A stretch of 64,000 bases of DNA from Kiritimatiellia bacterium (GTDB lineage Bacteria > Verrucomicrobiota > Kiritimatiellia > RFP12 > UBA1067). The DNA lies in the NCBI GenBank assembly GCA_017450695.1, contig JAFSTA010000076.1, positions 1-64,000 on the forward strand, given 5' to 3'. The notes under the pieces are model-generated. The model ran no database searches and was not told the origin of the DNA. It worked only from the letters and a program-made list of their open reading frames with translations. Position numbers and translations under genes: made by a program. Of this stretch, positions 24,824 through 64,000 are shown one piece after another. How positions within the stretch are numbered: the stretch's first letter is position 1; the number at the start of each line of letters is the position of its first letter.

Positions 24824-25474
24824 CGCCACCAGCTGAAAGGCGGGGAAACGTGGCGTGGAAGCGATCCGCATGTCCATTCCCATTTGCTTAGACCGAAGTT
24901 CCAGAAGGCCATTTTTGTGTAACCAGTTATATTCCAATTGCTTATTAAGAAAACAGACAAACCGTTCCATTTGTTCCCATGTATTTTTAACCTGGAAACA
25001 TTTCGAAGAAATGTTCTGAAATTTTTCCAAACATATCTTTTTACAGTTAACTTTGGAAAGTTTTCGATACTTGGAAGCGCGTTATGAATGATTTTTTGTA
25101 GTCCTTTAGGGTGCGCCGTAGTTCGCGGACAGGTGCCCGAGGGAGAAGCTGGGGACTGTGACTGGTAAGCGCTTCTCGCAAGGCAGCCGCAGCTCGCGGG
25201 GTATAGGCGGTGAGGCAACGGGCGAGACGCCCGTTGTCCCAGTAAGCCGCCAAGATGGCGGCTCTCCATACGGGAGGGTCGCAATTTATTGCGACCGCTG
25301 GCGCAAGGGGTGCCGGGGGGGGCGAATGGCGGGCGCAACAAGTTGCGTCCCTCCCGCCGGGAATGTCAATGGTCTTTTCCGGGCGGCCATCGTCTGGATG
25401 CGCATGTGGTTATCCACACGTCGCTTCTCCCTCTTCAATCAACCACAATAACCTCTAGCCCAAGGACTACTGCT
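24824..25474. other. Intergenic region with an AT-rich island
   Basis: From about 24865 to 25090 base composition drops sharply relative to the flanks, with hairpin AACATTTC/GAAATGTT near 24987-25010. A minus-strand frame starting at a TTG (25030) reads about 65 residues of non-repetitive protein-like sequence before running antisense into the oxidoreductase gene, but I recognise nothing. From 25190 on there are palindromic words (ACGGGCGAGACGCCCGT, CGCAATTTATTGCG, CGCAACAAGTTGCG) and one DnaA-box-like TTATCCACA at 25410-25418. Confidence 0.5.
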
Positions 25475-26281
25475 ATGATTGGTGCTATTATCGGCGATAT
25501 CGCCGGATCCTCTTACGAATCCCACAACATCAGGAAGAAGGAGTTTCCGCTCTTCTCGTGGCGCAGTCGTCCAACGGACGACAGCGTGATGACGCTCGCC
25601 ATTGCACGGGCTTTGCTCGATGCGGCGGACAATCTCGTTGCGTTACCCGCAGCCGCCGTGACCCGGATGCGTGAGTTCGGGCGCCGCTATCCGCGCATCG
25701 GGTACGGTCCGACATTAGCCCGCTGGCTTTCCGTCTCGGATCCTCGCCCTTATAACAGCTGGGGGAACGGCGCCGCGATGCGCGTGAGCGCGTGCGGCTG
25801 GGCCGGACGCACCCTTGACGAGGCACTCGCGTTCTCTAATGCCGTGACGGGCGTCACCGACAACCACCCCGAAGGGATCAAGGGCGCACGGGCAACTACA
25901 GCTGCGATCTTCCTGCTCCGCACCGGAACGCCCGTCACCGATGTTCGGAAGCATGTCACCGAGACGTTCTATCCGCTCGATTTCTCCCTCGATGACATTC
26001 GCCCGACCTATACGTTTGATGTCTCATGCCTGGGATCCGTTCCGCAGGCGCTGCAGGCCTTTTTCGAGGCCGACAACTTTGAAGAGACGATCCGCAACGC
26101 CGTCTCCATCGGCGGAGACAGCGACACCATTGCCGCCATCGCGGGGGCCGTCGCTGAAGCCCGCTGGGGCGTCCCCGACGAGCTTCGCGCAGAAGCCTTT
26201 GCCCGCCTCGATCCCTTCCGGTGCGCCGTGATCGATGATTTCGAGGCGCGCTTCGGCAAGCCTATCCCCAACCAATCGTAG
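25475..26281 (+). CDS. ADP-ribosylglycohydrolase family protein
   Basis: 268 residues, DraG/ARH fold, predicted to hydrolyse ADP-ribose from proteins or other acceptors. Metal-binding motifs typical of the family are visible: MIGAIIGDIAGSSYE at the N-terminus, TDDSVMT (about 31-37) and GGDSDTIAAIAG near 210-221, which supply the Mg-coordinating Asp/Thr set. The start at 25475 follows a weak AAGG and begins with the family N-terminus; an upstream frame runs through repeat sequence. The 3' end of the gene adjoins the sigma-54 promoter of the rtcB operon, so any upstream activator sites for that promoter may lie inside this gene. Confidence 0.9.
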   Translation: MIGAIIGDIAGSSYESHNIRKKEFPLFSWRSRPTDDSVMTLAIARALLDAADNLVALPAAAVTRMREFGRRYPRIGYGPTLARWLSVSDPRPYNSWGNGAAMRVSACGWAGRTLDEALAFSNAVTGVTDNHPEGIKGARATTAAIFLLRTGTPVTDVRKHVTETFYPLDFSLDDIRPTYTFDVSCLGSVPQALQAFFEADNFEETIRNAVSIGGDSDTIAAIAGAVAEARWGVPDELRAEAFARLDPFRCAVIDDFEARFGKPIPNQS

Positions 26282-26310: not shown

Positions 26311-26326
26311 TGGCAAGGTTCTTGCT
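26311..26326 (+). promoter_or_regulatory. Sigma-54 (-24/-12) promoter of small protein-rtcB operon
   Basis: TGGCAAGGTTCTTGCT: the GG (26312-26313) and GC (26324-26325) are separated by exactly 10 bp and embedded in TGGCA and TTGCT, matching the RpoN consensus TGGCAC-N5-TTGCW except for one base. Expected start near 26337, about 50 nt before the small-protein ATG. E. coli rtcBA is likewise sigma-54 dependent (activator RtcR). Confidence 0.8.
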
Positions 26327-26386
26327 CAATGAAACTGGATACGTAATTCTTCCGTCGAAACCAAGTATGGACAAGGAGTGAGAAGT

Positions 26387-26674
26387 ATGAATAACGAGAG
26401 GGGTGCGAAAGCCACCGAAATCATGCGAGACATTCGGAAGCGGCGTTTAGTCCCAAAAGTCAGAATTCAAAAGCCGAAAATGAACGCGGATTTGTTTGAG
26501 CAGGTCAAGGTGAAGATGGTGATGCGTATCTACGGCGTTTCCAGCGAACGGGCGAAGGAGATTATCGCGGGCCGTGTGGCCGAAAAGGCGGCACTTGAAG
26601 CCGAAAGCGGGGAGAAACACGAAAGGGGCATCAGGACTCTCTGTCGTCGTATCTTTGACGATGATGACGAGTAG
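26387..26674 (+). CDS. Small conserved unknown protein, MRIYGVS family, copy 1
   Basis: 95 residues, function unknown. AAGGAG lies 8 nt before the ATG. A basic N-terminus (residues 5-31, rich in Arg/Lys) precedes the core VKVKMVMRIYGVSSERAKEI (40-59), and an acidic tail ends in FDDDDE. The core aligns with the protein at 62010: over 31 residues about 20 are identical, including MVMRIYGVS. The core could form a helix-turn-helix like the YGVS-type turns of recombinase/regulator HTHs, but this is inference. First gene of the sigma-54 operon; 67 bp before rtcB. Confidence 0.8.
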   Translation: MNNERGAKATEIMRDIRKRRLVPKVRIQKPKMNADLFEQVKVKMVMRIYGVSSERAKEIIAGRVAEKAALEAESGEKHERGIRTLCRRIFDDDDE

Positions 26675-26741
26675 ATACCCGCGCGTGAAATCTTCAGCGA
26701 TGCCGGGTTATAAAACTCGATAGGGACTATAGGAGAAAATA

Positions 26742-28091
26742 ATGGAAGCGGACATCAAGATTTTTGCGGAGAATGTTGAGCAGGGCGCGTTGGACGACAT
26801 CCTCGCGCTTGCCGCGGTTCCCGTCAATGCGGGTAAGAAACTTCGGTTCATGCCCGATTGCCACAAGGGGGTGACCGTTCCGATCGGTACGTCAATCCCG
26901 ATAGACCTGTCGAATTCCCATGAGGCGATTGCGCCCGGAACGGTCGGCTGCGACATCGGATGCACGGTTTCGGCCGCGTTCTACGACAGACCGATGCCCC
27001 AGGAGCAGATTCCTCTTTTCGAGCATCGCATCCGAAAGGAGATACCTTTTGGCTTTGACATCAACGAGTCGTCCGACTACGACCGTAAGGAACTCTACCG
27101 CCTGATCAGCCGCAACATGGCACGGTTTGTTTCGGTGCATCCGGAAATGGCCGACTTCGCCACTGAAATCCGTTGCGATGGGGATATGATCGAGTGGATC
27201 AGGCGGTTTGGAATGACGGAAAAGATGTTCTTCAGTTCGCTTCCCTCGGTAGGCGGCGGAAACCACTTCGTCGAATATGATGAAAATGGGGAACTAGGCG
27301 AGTGGGCTGTTCTGGTCCATTGCGGAAGCCGCAACCTCGGGCAGAAGGTGTTCAGGTACTGGGAGGAGCGCGCACGGCACGACAAGGTGCCGAAGGATGT
27401 CCAGAAGGCGATTGCGGAGGATGTCAAGGGTACCATCTCGGACAGGCGCGAGATCAAGGCCGAGATTGCACGGCGCGTCCAGGAATGGAAGGACGGAAAC
27501 ATCGACGGGTACCTTTCCGGCGATGATCTTCGGCGTTACCTGATCGACGTCTTGATTACCCAGAGCTATGCCCGGTTCAACCATGAACTGATCCACCGCA
27601 AAATTTCAGGCATCTACAAGGGGCTTTGCGGCGGAACGGAAACCGACAATGTCGTTTCGGTACACAACTACATTGACTACGATCTGGAGGCGTTGGACGG
27701 AACTCCGCACATGATGATCCGTAAGGGAGCAATCCGATCCTACGCCGGGGAGAGGATGCTCATCCCCTTCAATATGAGGGACGGCGTGGCCGTCTGCGAG
27801 GGGAAGTCGAATGCGGACTGGAACTTCACCGCGCCGCACGGCGCCGGTCGTACGATGTCCCGCGCACAGGCATTCAAGACCTTGAGTGTCGATGCGTTCA
27901 AGGCCGAAATGGGCGATGCCGGGATTTACACCACCACGGCGAACAGGGACACGCTGGACGAAGCGCCGGAAGCCTACAAGAACAAGGACGACATTGTCCG
28001 TCTAATCGAACCGACGGCGCGGATTCTCTTCTTCCTGGTTCCTCGGATGAACATCAAGTCCGCCGAGGGAAAGCCGGTGTGGAACAAATGA
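26742..28091 (+). CDS. rtcB: RtcB-family RNA ligase
   Basis: 449 residues. RtcB joins RNA 2',3'-cyclic phosphate or 3'-phosphate ends to 5'-OH ends using GTP and Mn. All catalytic elements are present: VGCDIGC (Asp71, Cys74), GGGNHF (His175), HCGSRNLG (His193), SVHNYID (His308) and the guanylylated histidine in PHGAGRTMSR (His366). HSGSR-type residues are slightly altered (HCGSRN), pointing to a divergent RtcB subgroup. AGGAG lies 7 nt before the ATG. It is second in a sigma-54 operon behind a small unknown protein, paralleling the sigma-54 control of rtcBA in enterobacteria. No rtcA or archease gene is adjacent. Confidence 0.93.
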   Translation: MEADIKIFAENVEQGALDDILALAAVPVNAGKKLRFMPDCHKGVTVPIGTSIPIDLSNSHEAIAPGTVGCDIGCTVSAAFYDRPMPQEQIPLFEHRIRKEIPFGFDINESSDYDRKELYRLISRNMARFVSVHPEMADFATEIRCDGDMIEWIRRFGMTEKMFFSSLPSVGGGNHFVEYDENGELGEWAVLVHCGSRNLGQKVFRYWEERARHDKVPKDVQKAIAEDVKGTISDRREIKAEIARRVQEWKDGNIDGYLSGDDLRRYLIDVLITQSYARFNHELIHRKISGIYKGLCGGTETDNVVSVHNYIDYDLEALDGTPHMMIRKGAIRSYAGERMLIPFNMRDGVAVCEGKSNADWNFTAPHGAGRTMSRAQAFKTLSVDAFKAEMGDAGIYTTTANRDTLDEAPEAYKNKDDIVRLIEPTARILFFLVPRMNIKSAEGKPVWNK

Positions 28092-28758
28092 TCCGAGATT
28101 CCACGGTTGGGCGAAAACCACGGAATACACGGAAGACACGGAAAAGGATGGGGAGAGAATGCTTTTTTCGCATGCACAGCGTGGCTGGAAGTTGAGCTTT
28201 GAACTTACGGGCAAGAAACAAAGGAATGAGTTGAAATATGGGCGGCTATTTGAAAATCAGTGAATAGCCGTCCAAAAACCGGTTGCTTGTCTCCTTGAAT
28301 AATTTTTGAGGTAATTTCAAAACCACGGAATACACAGAACACACGGAATCGTCCGTTCCTGAAACACACGATTTTTCCGTGTATTCCGTGGTTGAACAAT
28401 CGATAGGCGGGAGGTTTTGCAATTGGCTCTTTTGTAAGAAGGGGAGGTGGGGGGTGGTTATTTCAAGGCGTATGGGACCAAACACAGGGATCAGGACTGC
28501 CCCGATTCGTACGGGAATTTCCTCTGCTTTGCGCCTGTCGCCTCCGTGGTTTCTGACACCGTGTAGGAGGGGCAACCTTTGGGGGACGTCTTGCGGTTCC
28601 GTATTTGGCGATCTGGCTGTTTTCTAGACTGACGCGGTGCTCAACGGCTTTTCAAATGGGGGAAAGCGGACATCCGCGAGATGCGCAGACGAGAAAACGG
28701 TAAGAACTCTTGAGAGGAACGGTTATCCTCTATGGGATTTCCCGGAATGGAGAATGAT
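28092..28758. other. Intergenic region after rtcB
   Basis: No gene seen. It contains three CCGTGTATTCCGTGG-type words (28113-28146, 28318-28345, 28374-28394), a long hairpin at 28240-28273, a GGGAGGT-rich segment, and an inverted repeat AGAGGA (28713-28718) / TCCTCT (28726-28731) just before the DUF932-like gene. I see no sigma-54 element here. Confidence 0.6.
28240..28273. other. Stable hairpin downstream of rtcB
   Basis: GGGCGGCTATT (28240-28250) pairs with AATAGCCGTCC (28263-28273); all 11 positions pair if one G-U is allowed. The loop is 12 nt. No U-tract follows on either strand, so it is not a standard terminator. Confidence 0.5.
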
Positions 28759-29844
28759 ATGATGAAAAACAATCAAAAAATAGACCTTGATTCACGGATT
28801 GGCAACCGTTTTGAACCGGTTTCCATCACACCCCGCCAGATAGTGGAGGTGTTGGAGTGCGACGAGACCAAGATTAAGGGGCTCTCAATCGGGCAGACGA
28901 CTTACAAGCTGAGCAACCGCTTCTACAAGACTCTGGCGGCAGAACTGGATGTCCCATACGGCGTGTTCGGTCTTTTCACACCGCTTGAGGTAATGACGCG
29001 AGCGGCCGAGAAGAAGCCGGATCTGCAGTTGCGTTTGACGGTGGATACGGCGCAAAGGGAGGCACTGGGCTTTACGCAGAACAAAGGCTTGCCCATGCCG
29101 GTGAAATATATTGAGAATGTCTTGCATGAAGACCGCCGCTTGCGGGAAGTGGAGTATGGTGGCGGCGTGCTGAGCGCCATGCTCGACCTCGATGAAGCGT
29201 GGGAGGTGTCGAACGACAGCGCCTACCATGTGCGGGTACGGTGTCGCGTCCCCGTGGACGGCGTGGGTATGCCGGACATGAGCCTTGCCACTTGGCGTCA
29301 GGTGTGTGCGAACGGTGCTGTTGCGGAGGCGCCGCTTTTCCGCACGAGGATGGAGATTAAGGATAACAGCGGCGAGCATTTCCGTCGTCTGCTGGCCTCC
29401 TTCAGCAATCCGTCAGGTGTGGAGATGCTGCAGGAACGGATGTGCGTGGCGGCCGGGACAAAAGCGTCGGTGGGCGAGGTGATGTTGCTGGAGGGGCTGA
29501 TCCGGCGGTCGGTCGCGAATGCGCGCAACCAGATGCTGCTTCGGGAACGGCTCAACGAAATCGCCGAAAACCCGTGTGTGCGCTACGGCGTCACAGACCT
29601 CGCGAATATCGGTCTGAAAAAGCGTCCGCTTCTGCCGGTTGGCTGCTGCGTGGCGGACCTTCTCAACTTCGCCTCGGAACTGGCAACCCACCATGCGGAG
29701 CTGTTGAAGCCCGATTCTACGCTTCACACCTTTGCGGGGACGGTGCTTGCAAAGGGGTTCGACCTGGAGGACCTCTATCCGAACGCGAGACAGACGAGCG
29801 CCTTCTATCTCAACGATGTGGATTTCTCACAGATGGTGGCGTAA
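28759..29844 (+). CDS. DUF932-like protein (phage/plasmid-type)
   Basis: About 361 residues. The VCANGAVAEAPLFRTRMEI stretch resembles the VCxNG block of DUF932 proteins, found in phages, plasmids and chromosomal islands, with unknown function. No catalytic motif is visible. Start: GGAG at 28749-28752 lies 6 nt before ATG 28759 and 9 nt before ATG 28762; two further upstream ATGs lack spacing. The helicase start follows its stop by one base, so the two genes form an operon. An AGAGGA/TCCTCT inverted repeat sits just upstream and could be an operator. Confidence 0.65.
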   Translation: MMKNNQKIDLDSRIGNRFEPVSITPRQIVEVLECDETKIKGLSIGQTTYKLSNRFYKTLAAELDVPYGVFGLFTPLEVMTRAAEKKPDLQLRLTVDTAQREALGFTQNKGLPMPVKYIENVLHEDRRLREVEYGGGVLSAMLDLDEAWEVSNDSAYHVRVRCRVPVDGVGMPDMSLATWRQVCANGAVAEAPLFRTRMEIKDNSGEHFRRLLASFSNPSGVEMLQERMCVAAGTKASVGEVMLLEGLIRRSVANARNQMLLRERLNEIAENPCVRYGVTDLANIGLKKRPLLPVGCCVADLLNFASELATHHAELLKPDSTLHTFAGTVLAKGFDLEDLYPNARQTSAFYLNDVDFSQMVA

Positions 29845-29845
29845 G

Positions 29846-31498
29846 ATGACAAAATACGAACGGCGGACTTACCAGGTGGAGGCAATCGAGGCGGGCGTGG
29901 CGGCGTTTACGGAACGGGACCACACGTCCGTTCTGCTCGAATCGCCGGTCGGTTCCGGTAAGACGTACATGGCGCTTGAGATGATTCAGCGACTGCAGGC
30001 GTACCTAGGGCGGCAGCTCAAGGTCGGATGGGTGGCGCCTCGCCACCACCTATTGCAGCAGATGATGGAGGCGAACCGCGATCTCTACCGCGACAACATC
30101 CGGCCCGTCTCGCTTTTCGAGAAGGTTCCGCCGCCGGTGGATCTTGTGGTTCTTGACGAGGCCCACCATGAGGCGACGCAGAGCTGCGTACTGCTCTACG
30201 AAAAGATGCGCGCGACATGGACGATCGGCCTCTCGGCGACGCCAATGCGGACGGACCGCATGAAACTCTCTTTCCAGGAGACGGTGCGCACATGTTCTAT
30301 TGCGCGGCTTATACGGGAGGGATATCTCAGCCCCTTCATCTCCTATCTCATTCCGAACTATACCGTGGAGGCGGTGGCGGACTTCTATCTGGCGGAACCC
30401 GCACGCTGGGGGAAGAGCATCGTGTTCTTTTCCACCATTGCCGAATGCGAGGCGTTCCGGGAACGTCTCGCGGCCGCTGGCGTGGGCTGTGAGGTGATCA
30501 CGAGCGAGAGCGACAAGGAACGCCAGATTGATGCCTTTTCCCGAAACATCGTGCCGGTTGTGGTGAACGTGGCGATGCTTTCGGAAGGCTTCGACCAACC
30601 GGACGTGACGAGCATTTTCGCACGCGACGCATCGCGCCTACCGACAATCCAGATGTGCGGGCGAGGCCTCCGCCGCGCCCCCGGAAAAATGGAGTGCAAT
30701 ATCGTGCAGAGCGCGGACACCAGTTACCTCTTCGAGCGCGTGGCACCTCCCAAGAACGCCTTCCGCTGGCAGAATGGGTGTTGGTTGGCGCTGACGGACG
30801 GCACGGAGGCGATTGAGCGGACGCTGAAGGAGACACTTCGCAGGATTGGTACCCACGAGAAGGAGGATCGCTCCGTACGGAGAAAGGAGTTCAAACGCGT
30901 CGCGTGGGTAGTGCCGCAGAAGTTCGCGCATCAGCTCGAAACCTTGACGCGGGCGGAACAAGCGGAAAAGGCGTATTACGCGATATGCGGGACAATCTAT
31001 GATACCTTGTCGCGTTTCCGCAAAGCCGCGCATGCCGCCTGTTGGGGAGAGAAACCGTGCCCCGATTGCGCGATCTACCTCAACAAGGGAAGGGGAGGAG
31101 GCCGGGAACGGGTTACAGCGATTCCCAACTTCCTGCGCGACGGCGACAGGGTGATTCCGGCACTGGGGGTCAACCTGCGGAACTGCTGTAACGACTTCGG
31201 GCAGACCAAGATCACGCATCGGGATCTTGCCATCGATCTTCTTCGGGGAATGGTGCGTCTCCGACTGGCGGCTGCTGGCGAACCGAATGCGAAAACACAG
31301 GCCATGAAGATGGCGGAACTTGGATACAGCGCGGACTCGAAGAAGTCCCGCCCCGGAACGCCGGTCGAGGCGGTCTTGCTGGCATCGGATGAGTTATTTA
31401 CGGGGGTGATGCCGTGGAGGTTGCAGTGGGCGCTTCTGGATTCTTTCGGCGCGACAGTCAAAGGGGACGCTCGTTACTACCTGAAGGGAAGGCAGTAG
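29846..31498 (+). CDS. Superfamily 2 DEAH-type helicase
   Basis: 550 residues. Motif I SPVGSGKT (33-40), motif II VLDEAHHE (DEAH at 104-107), motif III GLSATP, and motif VI QMCGRGLRRAPGK are all present, giving a UvrB/RecG-like DEAD/DEAH helicase core in the first 310 residues. The remaining C-terminal 240 residues are not recognised and contain a CWGEKPCPDC cysteine cluster that could bind zinc. It begins one base after the DUF932-like stop and probably acts with it on DNA or RNA. Link to the upstream rtcB operon is only by proximity. Confidence 0.85.
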   Translation: MTKYERRTYQVEAIEAGVAAFTERDHTSVLLESPVGSGKTYMALEMIQRLQAYLGRQLKVGWVAPRHHLLQQMMEANRDLYRDNIRPVSLFEKVPPPVDLVVLDEAHHEATQSCVLLYEKMRATWTIGLSATPMRTDRMKLSFQETVRTCSIARLIREGYLSPFISYLIPNYTVEAVADFYLAEPARWGKSIVFFSTIAECEAFRERLAAAGVGCEVITSESDKERQIDAFSRNIVPVVVNVAMLSEGFDQPDVTSIFARDASRLPTIQMCGRGLRRAPGKMECNIVQSADTSYLFERVAPPKNAFRWQNGCWLALTDGTEAIERTLKETLRRIGTHEKEDRSVRRKEFKRVAWVVPQKFAHQLETLTRAEQAEKAYYAICGTIYDTLSRFRKAAHAACWGEKPCPDCAIYLNKGRGGGRERVTAIPNFLRDGDRVIPALGVNLRNCCNDFGQTKITHRDLAIDLLRGMVRLRLAAAGEPNAKTQAMKMAELGYSADSKKSRPGTPVEAVLLASDELFTGVMPWRLQWALLDSFGATVKGDARYYLKGRQ

Positions 31499-60299: not shown

Positions 60300-61009
60300 C
60301 CTATGAGTTCAAGGTTGGGCGGTTGGGTTAAATGATTCAATCGTCGCTGCCGCGACTTGAAATCGGCCGACCGGGTGAGTAAGGACGCGGGCCTCGTCTA
60401 TAACTTCAACCCCCGGCGTGTAGTATAGCAAGTTATCTGAATAGAATCACTCAGGCAACGCGCGAGCGAAGGGGCTAAAAGCTAACAGCTACAAGCTAAC
60501 ACCTTACCTATAAGTTCAAGGTTGGGGGGGTAGCCCGTCGCGTACCGTCTAGAATGACTAGAAGTTCTAGAGTCTCTAGAACCTCTGGCCTACCGACACC
60601 AGCCTAGTGGGGAATACAGGAACAACGGCCACATCCTCCTTTATCCATTCCGTGAGATCCGTGTATTCCGTGGCTTTCAAACTGTCCAACAGAGGAATTT
60701 CCATGAGAATCGCATCGAAATTAGCCCGATTTTCGCCGATTGTGAAAATTGGTTAAATCAATATCGTGATTTTTGTAAGAGTGTGATACGATATAAATAT
60801 TCAAGGGGTCTAATTGACGAGAAATGAGAAAAAACTTTTGCAGGAATGGTCGGATAGGGGTGAGTGGCTTGAATCGGTCAGCCCAATTGGAAAGGGGGTG
60901 CTTAGATAAGCAAGAAACTTTTTGATTCATTTCTTGTAAGACCGGCGCGGTGTCGTCGTTTTTCCCCTGTGTTCGTTCACGCTCACCAACTCTCAAAGAA
61001 AGGAATTCA
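60300..61009. other. Gap before ECF-like sigma factor
   Basis: No gene seen. Repeats: TTAAATGATTCAATCG/GAAATCGG word (60326-60372), TTCTAGAGTCTCTAGAA (60565-60582) with flanking CTAGAA words, and the CCGTG element plus CCAACAGAGGAATT (60658-60704). From 60718 to about 60860 the sequence turns AT-rich, with an inverted repeat ATATCGT (60761-60767) / ACGATAT (60788-60794) overlapping a TATAAA. Confidence 0.6.
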
Positions 61010-61627
61010 ATGAAACTAGACAAAGAGACAATCGTTTCCTACCCAAATCAGTCCGTCTGGTCTGATTACTACAACAGGTTCCGCGGCCCGCTTTTGAATA
61101 TGCTCCGGCGCAACAGCCAGTCCTCCGCTGACTGTGAGGATGCCGTGGAAGAGGCTTTCCATAAACTGATGCATAAGAAAGATTATGACTCCTATGGCGA
61201 CAAGAAGCCGGAGACGGAATCGAGCTGGTTTTGGGCGCTTTACTGGCAGTCGCGCGCCTACCTTTCACACCTCAAGAGTCGATGCGAAACACACGCGAAG
61301 TATGTCGAGCGTACCGCGAAAGAATTGGAAGAAGACTTTGCCGGCAGGTATCTGGGCGAAGCAATCGATTCCGACATTCGCACCCGCTCGCTCATGCGTG
61401 CCCTTGAAACACTGAAGGCGAAGCAAGGTGTTTCGCCCCGGGACCTGGAGATTTATGTGAACCGTAAGATACATGAATTGCCGTCGAAGGTGGTTGCTGA
61501 GAAATACGGGATTACGGCGAATAATGTGGACCAGGTTACTTGGCGTGTCGGATGTATTGTCCGCAAGCACGGACCGAGGCACTTCAAGGCCGCGCTTCGT
61601 CGCGAAAGATACGGACATGTCGCGTAA
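61010..61627 (+). CDS. ECF-like sigma factor
   Basis: 205 residues. Region 2-like block at 20-80 (SADCEDAVEEAFHKLMHKK, the DxxQDxF-type position) and a region 4-like HTH at about 150-185 (LPSKVVAEKYGITANNVDQV). The inter-region linker is longer than usual and the spacing is atypical, so it may be a divergent ECF or a regulator. AAAGGA precedes the ATG. A palindrome ATATCGT-N20-ACGATAT lies 220 bp upstream. Downstream is a sigma-54 promoter, so its relation to the next genes is regulatory at most. Confidence 0.7.
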   Translation: MKLDKETIVSYPNQSVWSDYYNRFRGPLLNMLRRNSQSSADCEDAVEEAFHKLMHKKDYDSYGDKKPETESSWFWALYWQSRAYLSHLKSRCETHAKYVERTAKELEEDFAGRYLGEAIDSDIRTRSLMRALETLKAKQGVSPRDLEIYVNRKIHELPSKVVAEKYGITANNVDQVTWRVGCIVRKHGPRHFKAALRRERYGHVA

Positions 61628-61711: not shown

Positions 61712-61871
61712 AAGGGTAGGGACTTATCCTTATTTCCATTTCAGCGCGTGGCGCGAACCTGCCTGCTTATAGACAACGATATAGTATTTTCTAGAATCAT
61801 CCAGCGCGTAAGATATGGCTTGCCCAAATGTGTGTTCAGATACTGATCAAATATTGAATCGCTGCAATATT

Positions 61872-61943: not shown

Positions 61944-61959
61944 TGGTACAGTTCTTGCA
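61944..61959 (+). promoter_or_regulatory. Sigma-54 (-24/-12) promoter of small protein-AAA operon
   Basis: TGGTACAGTTCTTGCA: GG (61945-61946) and GC (61957-61958) exactly 10 bp apart, matching TGGYRYR-N4-TTGCA. It shares GTTCTTGC with the rtcB promoter at 26311. Expected start near 61970, about 40 nt before the ATG. Confidence 0.8.
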
Positions 61960-62009: not shown

Positions 62010-62315
62010 ATGGTAAAAGAGGAAGATTCGAGGATTGCGGAAGATTTCTTTACAGGAATCGAAAAACACGCAGAGCGGGGTCTGCAAAGGTCTCGTACAC
62101 GCGGGAAGAAAAAGCCGGAAGAACTTTTCTCCAACGTGAAGGTGGAAATGGTCATGCGCATCTACGGGGTCTCGCGTACCAAGGCGCTCGAAATCATCAC
62201 CACGCGCGAGAGTGAAATAAAGACCGCGGAAGGCGAGGGGGCTGACCGCTCGACGGAGGAAGACTGTGATGTAGCGTTCATTTCCGCCAAGGAATTCTTC
62301 GCAGGGAAAAATTGA
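62010..62315 (+). CDS. Small conserved unknown protein, MRIYGVS family, copy 2
   Basis: 101 residues, unknown function. AAGGA precedes the ATG. An acidic N-terminus (EEDSRIAEDFF) and a basic segment (24-36) lead to the core VKVEMVMRIYGVSRTKALEI (43-62), then an acidic C-terminus. About 20 of 31 core positions are identical to the protein at 26387, and the genomic layout is the same: a sigma-54 promoter, the small gene, then an effector. Next gene starts 31 bp downstream. Confidence 0.8.
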   Translation: MVKEEDSRIAEDFFTGIEKHAERGLQRSRTRGKKKPEELFSNVKVEMVMRIYGVSRTKALEIITTRESEIKTAEGEGADRSTEEDCDVAFISAKEFFAGKN

Positions 62316-62346: not shown

Positions 62347-64000
62347 ATGGCTAAATTCAAGCAGATTCCACAGAACTATCTGTTTCGCGCACTCCTCAAG
62401 TACTGGGGAAACATGGTGCGCAACTTTAACGAGGATTGCCGCGATGACGATTTCTTCGATGTCGTGCGCAACTGCTTCGACCACGACCGTGCGGTAGAAC
62501 TCATCGAGGTCGCCTACACGGAGCAGGAAATCGAGGAAATGCGCCGGGCGAAATCGCGTTGCAACCGGCTCGACCTCTCGGATTCGATGGACGATGTGTT
62601 TACCGTCCTTTGGAATCACGACGGTTCGCGTAAAAAATGCCGCGCCGTGCTGGACGCTATCCGGAAGTATATGCTTGCGGATTCGGACAAGCAGGGCGAC
62701 GGGGATATCGTGGTGCAGCGCTTTTCAGTCCTGAAGCGCATCATGAAGCTGGACGAGCTGGAGGCCGATATCCTCATGTTCGCATACGTGCGTGACCAGA
62801 CTTGTTTCTCTTGGCCGCTCAGGGTAGAGAACCGCTTGAAACCGCTCTACTACGCGATGGCTCTGGACCGTTCCTACGCTGAGGTCGCAAAAGCGATGTC
62901 GGCGCAGGGGAAACTGATGAAGCTCGAACTGCTCGATGACGACTATGACTTCAATGTGCGGGTGTTCGGCGGATTCATGGACGGTATATCGGACGAAGCG
63001 TTCGAACGGCACTTCTACGCGAAGGGAGACACGGAGGATGTCTTGCCGTGGGAATTCTACGGAGACCTCGCGGCGAAGGATGGCGAGGTCTTGAAGCGGA
63101 TGATTACCGCGAGCGGAGGCAAGTGCAACATTCTTCTCTACGGTGTACCCGGAACGGGGAAGACCTCGTTCGCTCGTTCCCTGGCAAAGCAACTGGGCCG
63201 CACCATCTATGAAATCAAGCAGGGGGATGAGGACGGCAAGAACATGAAGTCCGAGGCTCGCTTGGTCGGCATCCAGGTCTGCAACGGGCAGGAAGACCCG
63301 GAGGAAAGCCTGATGATGATTGATGAGGCGGACGCGCTTCTTCGCGGTTCGTCCTCTGGGTTCAGCCTCTTCGGTTTCGACTTCGGCGGTGGCAAAACGA
63401 CGGAGAAAGGCGTGATGAACTCCATTCTCGATGAGATGCGGATACCCGCCATCTGGATTTCCAACACGCCGGCTATGATGATGGACGAGTCTGTCCGCCG
63501 CCGCTTCGATTACTCCATCTGCTTTGAGCGCCTCAACGGCGCGCAGCGCGTCGCCATCTGGCGCAACCAGGTGGCGAAACACGGACTGGAGGCGTTGATT
63601 CCCGACGCGAAGACTGAGGAGTACGCGGCGAAATACGAGACGAGCGCGGGCGGCATCTCCACCGTCCTCACGAACGTGAAGCGCATGGCGCCGGAACCGG
63701 AGAAGGTGGACGAGCTGGTCGCAACCCTCATGAAGCCCCACTGCCAGCTCATGGGGGTGAAGAACGTCAACGGATTCCTTCCCGCGAAGGACTACTCGCT
63801 CGACGGCCTCAACATCAAGGGGAAGGTTAAGCTCGACCGTCTGGTGGCGGCTGCGCGGAACTACCTGGACGCGGAGTTCGGTTCTGCGGACGCGGACAAG
63901 CCCCGCATGAACATCCTCCTCTTCGGGCCTCCCGGAACGGGCAAGACCGAGTTCGTGAAGTACCTCGGCAAGACGCTGGACCGCAAGGTCGTGGTCATGA
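62347..64000 (+). CDS. Tandem AAA+ ATPase, partial (continues past window)
   Basis: 551 residues visible, open at the right edge. Residues 1-255 form a helical N-terminal region with no recognised domain. The first AAA+ module has Walker A GVPGTGKTS (266-274), Walker B SLMMIDEAD (321-329) and an arginine-rich sensor/finger stretch (DESVRRRFDYS). A second Walker A GPPGTGKTE (527-535) begins another module that runs off the window. Double AAA+ proteins usually remodel protein or nucleoprotein complexes. The ATG at 62347 follows the small gene by 31 bp with AAAGGAAAGG upstream, in the same sigma-54 operon. Confidence 0.88.
   Translation, partial: MAKFKQIPQNYLFRALLKYWGNMVRNFNEDCRDDDFFDVVRNCFDHDRAVELIEVAYTEQEIEEMRRAKSRCNRLDLSDSMDDVFTVLWNHDGSRKKCRAVLDAIRKYMLADSDKQGDGDIVVQRFSVLKRIMKLDELEADILMFAYVRDQTCFSWPLRVENRLKPLYYAMALDRSYAEVAKAMSAQGKLMKLELLDDDYDFNVRVFGGFMDGISDEAFERHFYAKGDTEDVLPWEFYGDLAAKDGEVLKRMITASGGKCNILLYGVPGTGKTSFARSLAKQLGRTIYEIKQGDEDGKNMKSEARLVGIQVCNGQEDPEESLMMIDEADALLRGSSSGFSLFGFDFGGGKTTEKGVMNSILDEMRIPAIWISNTPAMMMDESVRRRFDYSICFERLNGAQRVAIWRNQVAKHGLEALIPDAKTEEYAAKYETSAGGISTVLTNVKRMAPEPEKVDELVATLMKPHCQLMGVKNVNGFLPAKDYSLDGLNIKGKVKLDRLVAAARNYLDAEFGSADADKPRMNILLFGPPGTGKTEFVKYLGKTLDRKVVVM

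Follow-up and report, generated by a model that had tools for sequence, protein, structure and literature searches.

In the 64-kb stretch of DNA analysed here (the window, which is part of contig C249 in the 5.0-Mb, 97.7% complete genome of a rumen bacterium), a sigma-54 element precedes a gene for a small protein of an undescribed family, SMALL-B, and a gene for an accessory RtcB-family RNA ligase. We believe, with a probability of roughly 60%, that this element is a real promoter transcribing both genes as a branch of an RtcR regulon that has been enlarged in this Kiritimatiellae lineage. The element, TGGCAAGGTTCTTGCT, was located by motif search at 26311-26326 on the forward strand, with GG at 26312-26313 and GC at 26324-26325. 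A preliminary description of this DNA had placed these bases exactly 10 bp apart, ahead of a small gene followed by rtcB, and this is confirmed here, with the stop of rtcB at 28091. TGGCAAGGTTCTTGCT is near-consensus, with 15 of 16 score points (the sixth position is A, not C), and it is the single exact match to TGGCAN6TTGCW in the window. When one mismatch was allowed, 6 matches were found versus 5.3 expected, which makes the motif weak evidence on its own; a single exact site is not improbable by itself either, and the case for TGGCAAGGTTCTTGCT therefore rests on its context. Genome-wide counts of the motif were by themselves judged uninformative. As to that context, the ATG of the small gene at 26387 is 76 nt from the first and 60 nt from the last base of the element, an element as good was present in 0.25% of control 150-bp stretches of the window, and position and spacing agree with the rule observed for promoters of the SMALL family. 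We classify it as a predicted -24/-12 sigma-54 promoter ahead of the operon. The neighbour of the operon is an ADP-ribosylglycohydrolase gene (25289-26281), which ends 30 bp upstream of TGGCAAGGTTCTTGCT, and no divergent rtcR adjoins it.

SMALL-B (95 aa; 26387-26674, forward strand; ribosome-binding site AAGGAG at 26373-26378) displays the core VKVKMVMRIYGVSxExAKEIIAGR and was assigned by sequence comparison to the SMALL family, whose core reads VKVKMVMRIYGVSRxxALEIIAxR. Searches of Pfam, NCBIfam, PHROGs, PADLOC and viral contigs with SMALL gave no match above threshold, and its predicted structure, with two confident helices (31-49 and 53-90) and a remainder of low confidence, had no fold match in the PDB at E<=0.001. 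Hence, the small protein described before as unknown indeed matches no known family, but it has relatives that usually head AAA+/ClpP operons. SMALL-related proteins are present in three copies in the genome of the window and in 11 of 60 close relatives, and a phylum-wide sample of 388 genomes contained 7 that encode them. They also occur at 25 named loci, mostly from gut or rumen assemblies of Kiritimatiellae, Verrucomicrobia or Lentisphaerae, and within these searches the family appears confined to Kiritimatiellae-type bacteria of the gut and rumen. With start codons picked by ribosome-binding site and a threshold score of at least 14 of 16, a sigma-54 element ending 31-66 nt before the start was found in 17 of 29 SMALL genes; for these 17, equally good elements were present in 0-0.3% of control stretches of the same loci. 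Moreover, RtcR was present in 10 of the 11 SMALL-bearing genomes versus 9 of 49 others (p=1e-5), and in G050, the lone SMALL-bearing genome without RtcR, the SMALL gene (L070) is not preceded by an element of this kind.

Most SMALL genes are the first of an operon that encodes a Cdc48-like double-AAA+ ATPase, and a ClpP gene lies close by or between the two. A divergent rtcR-like gene is often found beside these operons, and several of them have as neighbours the genes for an RtcR-related activator, RtcR2, for an ECF-like sigma factor, for a helicase and for a conserved protein that fits no known family. RUG14632 has two SMALL-B genes and UBA1200 has one; together with the window copy at 26387, they form a subgroup of four, characterized by an AxxIMxDIRxRR-like stretch at the N-terminus, where the AAA+-linked copies have an SAEEFF-type motif instead. 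The window copy is shortened by a TAG after DDDDE; its in-frame continuation (26673-26716) is IPAREIFSDAGL, and a RUG14632 copy reads DDEWIPASEIFCDA. Since the RUG14632 homolog (L055) has TGG in place of the stop, the end motif would either have been lost recently or be read through. In addition, a SMALL-like gene ahead of an AAA+ gene in G003 (L133:1385-1615) has lost the MVMRIYG core and kept the end motifs.

The preliminary description invoked rpoN and an RtcR-like enhancer-binding protein, and both are encoded in this genome: there is one sigma-54 gene (rpoN), and two activators, on contigs C177 and C78, carry the RtcR N-terminal (divergent CARF) domain plus a sigma-54 activation domain. 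The C177 activator is canonical RtcR by NCBIfam equivalog (699.7 bits; cut-off, 650). The C78 activator, RtcR2, is RtcR-related, falls below the same cut-off of 650 and differs in its C-terminal HTH region. Three RtcB proteins and one RtcA are encoded. The genes for RtcA and a canonical RtcB make up an operon on C236, where a sigma-54 element, TGGCATGGCACTTGCT, lies beside the rtcA start and an RtcR-type operator is present as well; in relatives, the order is like that of E. coli, with rtcR divergent from sigma-54-rtcA-rtcB. Because of this canonical operon, the RtcB of the window is an extra copy and its operon an added branch. Thus, the previous remark that rtcA is missing holds for the SMALL-B-rtcB operon but not for the genome, and the proposal of a lineage-specific RtcR/sigma-54 response is largely supported, by the recurrence of sigma-54 elements before SMALL genes and by a candidate operator within the operon, although as an addition to the RNA-repair system and not as its replacement. 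No Ro60 (TROVE) was found in the window's own genome.

The operator was recognized as an inverted repeat, CTAT-N8-ATAG, that is common to rtcA and SMALL/AAA+ promoters, where it lies upstream of the sigma-54 elements. The repeat followed by a sigma-54 element occurred at 14 sites (including a few overlapping or repeated ones). Every one of them was in an RtcR-positive genome, and the 19 RtcR-negative genomes had none (p=7e-5 by site; by genome, 8 of 19 versus 0 of 19). A longer form, ATAG-N3-CTAT-N8-ATAG, had 14 exact sites in the 19 RtcR-positive genomes and 1 in the 19 RtcR-negative genomes, and the reversed-pattern control presented no such bias. The targets comprise rtcA, rtcB, SMALL-AAA+ operons, AAA+ paralogs, three tRNA-Leu genes and a Ro60-like gene. 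In Salmonella, RtcR is established as the regulator of Rsr, Y RNA and rtcBA (PMC7790460, PMC9879122), and the presence of the repeat before rtcAB and before a Ro60-like gene with a Y-RNA-like RNA supports its assignment to RtcR. We consider the CTAT/ATAG repeat a candidate RtcR operator, and we infer from its distribution that RtcR binds it. A scan of 7.5 kb of E. coli DNA placed the best operator-like site 118 bp ahead of the sigma-54 element of rtcB. Its score is low, 8.1 versus 16.5-27.5 for the sites from which the matrix was made; E. coli RtcR has a similar C-terminal HTH region. The candidate operator is a direct, testable handle on the genes under the RNA-damage sensor, and it may help to define the E. 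coli enhancer.

Two sets of these sites deserve description on their own. At L126 and L128 (genomes G028 and G036), tRNA-Leu genes, of which G028 has three, have the operator and a sigma-54 element about 265 nt upstream and are possibly induced by RNA damage. At L139 and L144 (genomes G009 and G028), operator and sigma-54 element precede a structured RNA resembling Y RNA and a Ro60/Rsr homolog in divergent orientation. This RNA is long and structured, with a tRNA-like T-arm, and the protein was missed by Pfam TROVE but matched Rsr/Ro60 structures by sequence (E=4.5e-6).

Within the window, motif search identified one four-half-site candidate operator, TTAT-N8-ATAG-N3-CTAT-N8-ATAA at 26708-26742, directly before rtcB (0.00 expected in shuffled windows), and the only two window sites with at most one mismatch to the 12-base operator form both overlap at this position. 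It overlaps the ribosome-binding site and the first base of the start codon of rtcB and is about 400 bp downstream of the 26311 promoter, which is unusual, since the operator was upstream in the other promoters examined. No operator was found in the 300 bp upstream of 26311, nor any other strong sigma-54 element near 26708-26742. Enhancer-binding proteins can activate from downstream, and at this distance RtcR would have to loop back. A similar but weaker tandem site follows one SMALL-B gene of RUG14632.

This odd position lends some weight to a reading in which sigma-54 does act at the promoter but the activator is RtcR2 or another bEBP, the palindrome at 26708 not being the enhancer of this promoter. 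RtcR2, with its different C-terminal HTH region, is encoded beside SMALL-AAA+ operons in several genomes, and in several such operons (L025, L061, L062, L064, L072 and L078) the sigma-54 element is preceded, at a distance of 68-93 bp, by a second inverted repeat, TTTGAC-N(6-8)-GTCAGA; this repeat is possibly the RtcR2 site, although G029 carries the repeat without RtcR2. However, upstream of 26311 we found neither this repeat nor CTAT/ATAG, and genomes with canonical RtcR only (G002 and G029) also have sigma-54 SMALL operons with the CTAT/ATAG operator. On balance, service by RtcR2 or another bEBP is unlikely, though it has a real chance of being correct, and we favor control of the SMALL-B-rtcB promoter by RtcR.

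The second gene of the operon (26742-28091, forward strand) encodes a 449-aa protein that matches PF01139 (E=4.9e-53) and in alignment keeps the catalytic Cys/His motifs DIGC, GGGNHF, HCGSRN, HNY and HGAGR, so that it can be classified as an RtcB-family ligase, with ligation of 3'-P/2',3'-cyclic-P to 5'-OH RNA ends as its predicted activity. It was found in 2 of 95 related genomes, its only ortholog being that of UBA1200 (88% identity), and it scores higher against phrog_1075, a phage RtcB family, than against Pfam RtcB (311.7 versus 181.3 bits). A recent phage origin was considered and rejected, as the nearest RtcB in the phage collection was 37% identical and that of a viral contig 34%. The strong sigma-54 element is present in one of the four SMALL-B genes, the window copy, and none adjoins the SMALL-B gene of UBA1200. 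The absence at the only rtcB ortholog found partly bears out a refuting condition of the preliminary description, namely lack of conservation in orthologous loci. In UBA1200 and RUG14632, SMALL-B genes sit in long co-directional arrays. On one RUG14632 contig (L055 and L078), such an array, in which a RecC-like gene and genes for two GmrSD-like proteins also occur, lies upstream of a SMALL-ClpP-AAA+-helicase module and looks like a defence or repair island.

It could then be argued that the sigma-54 match is fortuitous and that SMALL-B-rtcB is a horizontally moved cassette with another promoter, in which rtcB is an accessory, phage-type ligase. The single element among the SMALL-B genes and its absence in UBA1200, the rarity and phrog_1075 affinity of this RtcB, and the GmrSD-like and recombination genes in the arrays of RUG14632 and UBA1200 are in line with such a cassette. 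Against it stand the element's obedience to the family rule for position and spacing, the four-half-site candidate operator inside the operon and the low identity to the nearest phage RtcB, and we regard a fortuitous match as doubtful. Finally, that the operon replaces rtcBA as the RNA-repair system of the organism, with SMALL standing in for RtcA, would fit a sigma-54 element before an operon devoid of rtcA but is highly improbable, because the same genome has a canonical rtcA-rtcB operon with its own element and operator and because SMALL, for which known families gave no match, is usually found together with an AAA+ ATPase.

A second SMALL operon is located at the end of the window, all its genes on the forward strand. 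It comprises a sigma-54 element, TGGTACAGTTCTTGCA (61944-61959, forward strand; identified by motif search and control stretches), a second paralog, SMALL-A (62010-62315), with EDFF/KEFF-type motifs at both ends, and a gene for a Cdc48-like double-AAA+ ATPase (62347-64000, extending beyond the window; L026:4348-6522) of 724 aa that ends with a C-terminal IGF. An ECF-like sigma factor gene (60950-61627, forward strand) lies beside it, two weak RtcR-operator-like sites are found upstream of the promoter (61764-61799), and clpP follows the AAA+ gene, near 65.6 kb on the contig. The 18 full-length AAA+ proteins compared, each pair at least 48% identical, all carry a variable linker and then IGF or VGF, which falls among the last 11 residues. 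Four further ones, of which three are paralogs linked to RtcR and one is a distant homolog from the record of a faecal phage, ended in VGFSAA, MGF, IGF and IGFIH, so that an IGF-like tripeptide was at the C-terminal end of all 22 proteins examined. Tripeptides of the IGF type are the ClpP-docking motif of Clp ATPases, and on this basis a C-terminal docking tail is predicted for this Cdc48-type ATPase; we consider it likely that the IGF/VGF/MGF tripeptide acts in this way. Such tripeptide loops are described in PMC8745299. The best match of the AAA+ protein in defence libraries was PADLOC IetA (146 bits), and its best solved relatives were AFG2 and Cdc48. Membership in the Clp/Hsp100 family was rejected on these matches to IetA, CDC48 and AFG2.

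These data can be accommodated in the following model. Upon cleavage of RNA, probably tRNA, RtcR would, as in Salmonella, sense the fragments, binding them through its CARF domain, attach to CTAT/ATAG operators and open the sigma-54 polymerase. This would switch on rtcAB, the SMALL, AAA+ and ClpP operons and, in some genomes, Ro60 with its Y-RNA-like RNA and tRNA genes. The extra RtcB, presumably co-transcribed with SMALL-B, would re-ligate broken RNA. SMALL proteins such as SMALL-A are probably adaptors of the AAA+/ClpP machine, and SMALL-B may be a diverged, shortened leader whose role in the rtcB operon is mainly to carry the promoter. In its broadest form, for which we would offer somewhat less than even odds, the RtcR regulon of gut Kiritimatiellae couples RNA repair to targeted proteolysis: RtcR and sigma-54 would induce a Cdc48-type unfoldase that docks on a ClpP of its own through its C-terminal IGF with SMALL proteins as adaptors, SMALL-B-rtcB being a cross-over branch. 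RtcR is known to control RNA repair and is predicted to control some defence loci as well. Should the operator and promoters work as suggested by the sequences, RNA damage in this lineage would also induce a machine for protein unfolding and degradation, and docking of a Cdc48-type ATPase on ClpP by a C-terminal IGF would be new to the literature searched. In that literature, of incomplete coverage, we found no description of the SMALL family, of AAA+/ClpP as a target, of the C-terminal IGF tail or of the operator motif.

The E. coli rtcBA and Salmonella rsr-yrlBA-rtcBA operons are RtcR-sigma-54 RNA-repair operons (PMC9650030, PMC7790460) that share with the window an RtcB-family ligase, a sigma-54 element and a CARF-domain RtcR in the genome; in relatives, moreover, the candidate operator precedes rtcAB and a Ro60-like gene with a Y-RNA-like RNA. 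In contrast to them, the window operon lacks rtcA and an adjoining rtcR, is led by a lineage-specific small gene, has its candidate operator downstream of the promoter and coexists with a separate canonical rtcAB. RtcR-like CARF activators outside Rtc have been reported next to restriction-modification genes (PMC4012209) and in CoCoNuT superoperons (PMC11090510), and an RtcR-type regulator with other targets is consequently not new in kind. Similarly, RtcR-like regulators here adjoin genes other than rtcAB, but these neighbours are SMALL, ClpP and the Cdc48-like AAA+ protein with its IGF tail, and canonical RtcR operators are common to rtcAB and SMALL/AAA+ operons. The AAA+ protein resembles ClpXP and ClpAP in being a ring partner of a barrel protease with an IGF-type tripeptide, although it is a double AAA of the Cdc48/AFG2 type with IGF at the extreme C-terminus, a place where proteasomal Cdc48/PAN ATPases bear HbYX tails. 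It also recalls the anti-phage system IetAS, where an AAA ATPase goes together with a serine protease. The IetAS protease is subtilisin-like, whereas here the protease is ClpP and there are two AAA domains; a defence role is not implied.

Downstream of rtcB, a 640-bp gap with inverted repeats separates this gene from two forward-strand genes that may belong to the same transcript. The first (28756-29844) encodes a conserved protein that fits no known family and shares 78-83% identity with its homologs elsewhere, and the second (29843-31498, in an open frame beginning at 29732) encodes its partner, a DEAD/ResIII-type helicase; in relatives, the first gene adjoins RtcR2. A DUF932-type identity for the 28756 protein was discarded for want of Pfam support, its predicted structure was too poor to use (pLDDT 46), and no sequence relative was found in the PDB. 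The repeats after rtcB, inverted as well as direct and of the type CCACGGAATACAC, extend over 28100-28395.
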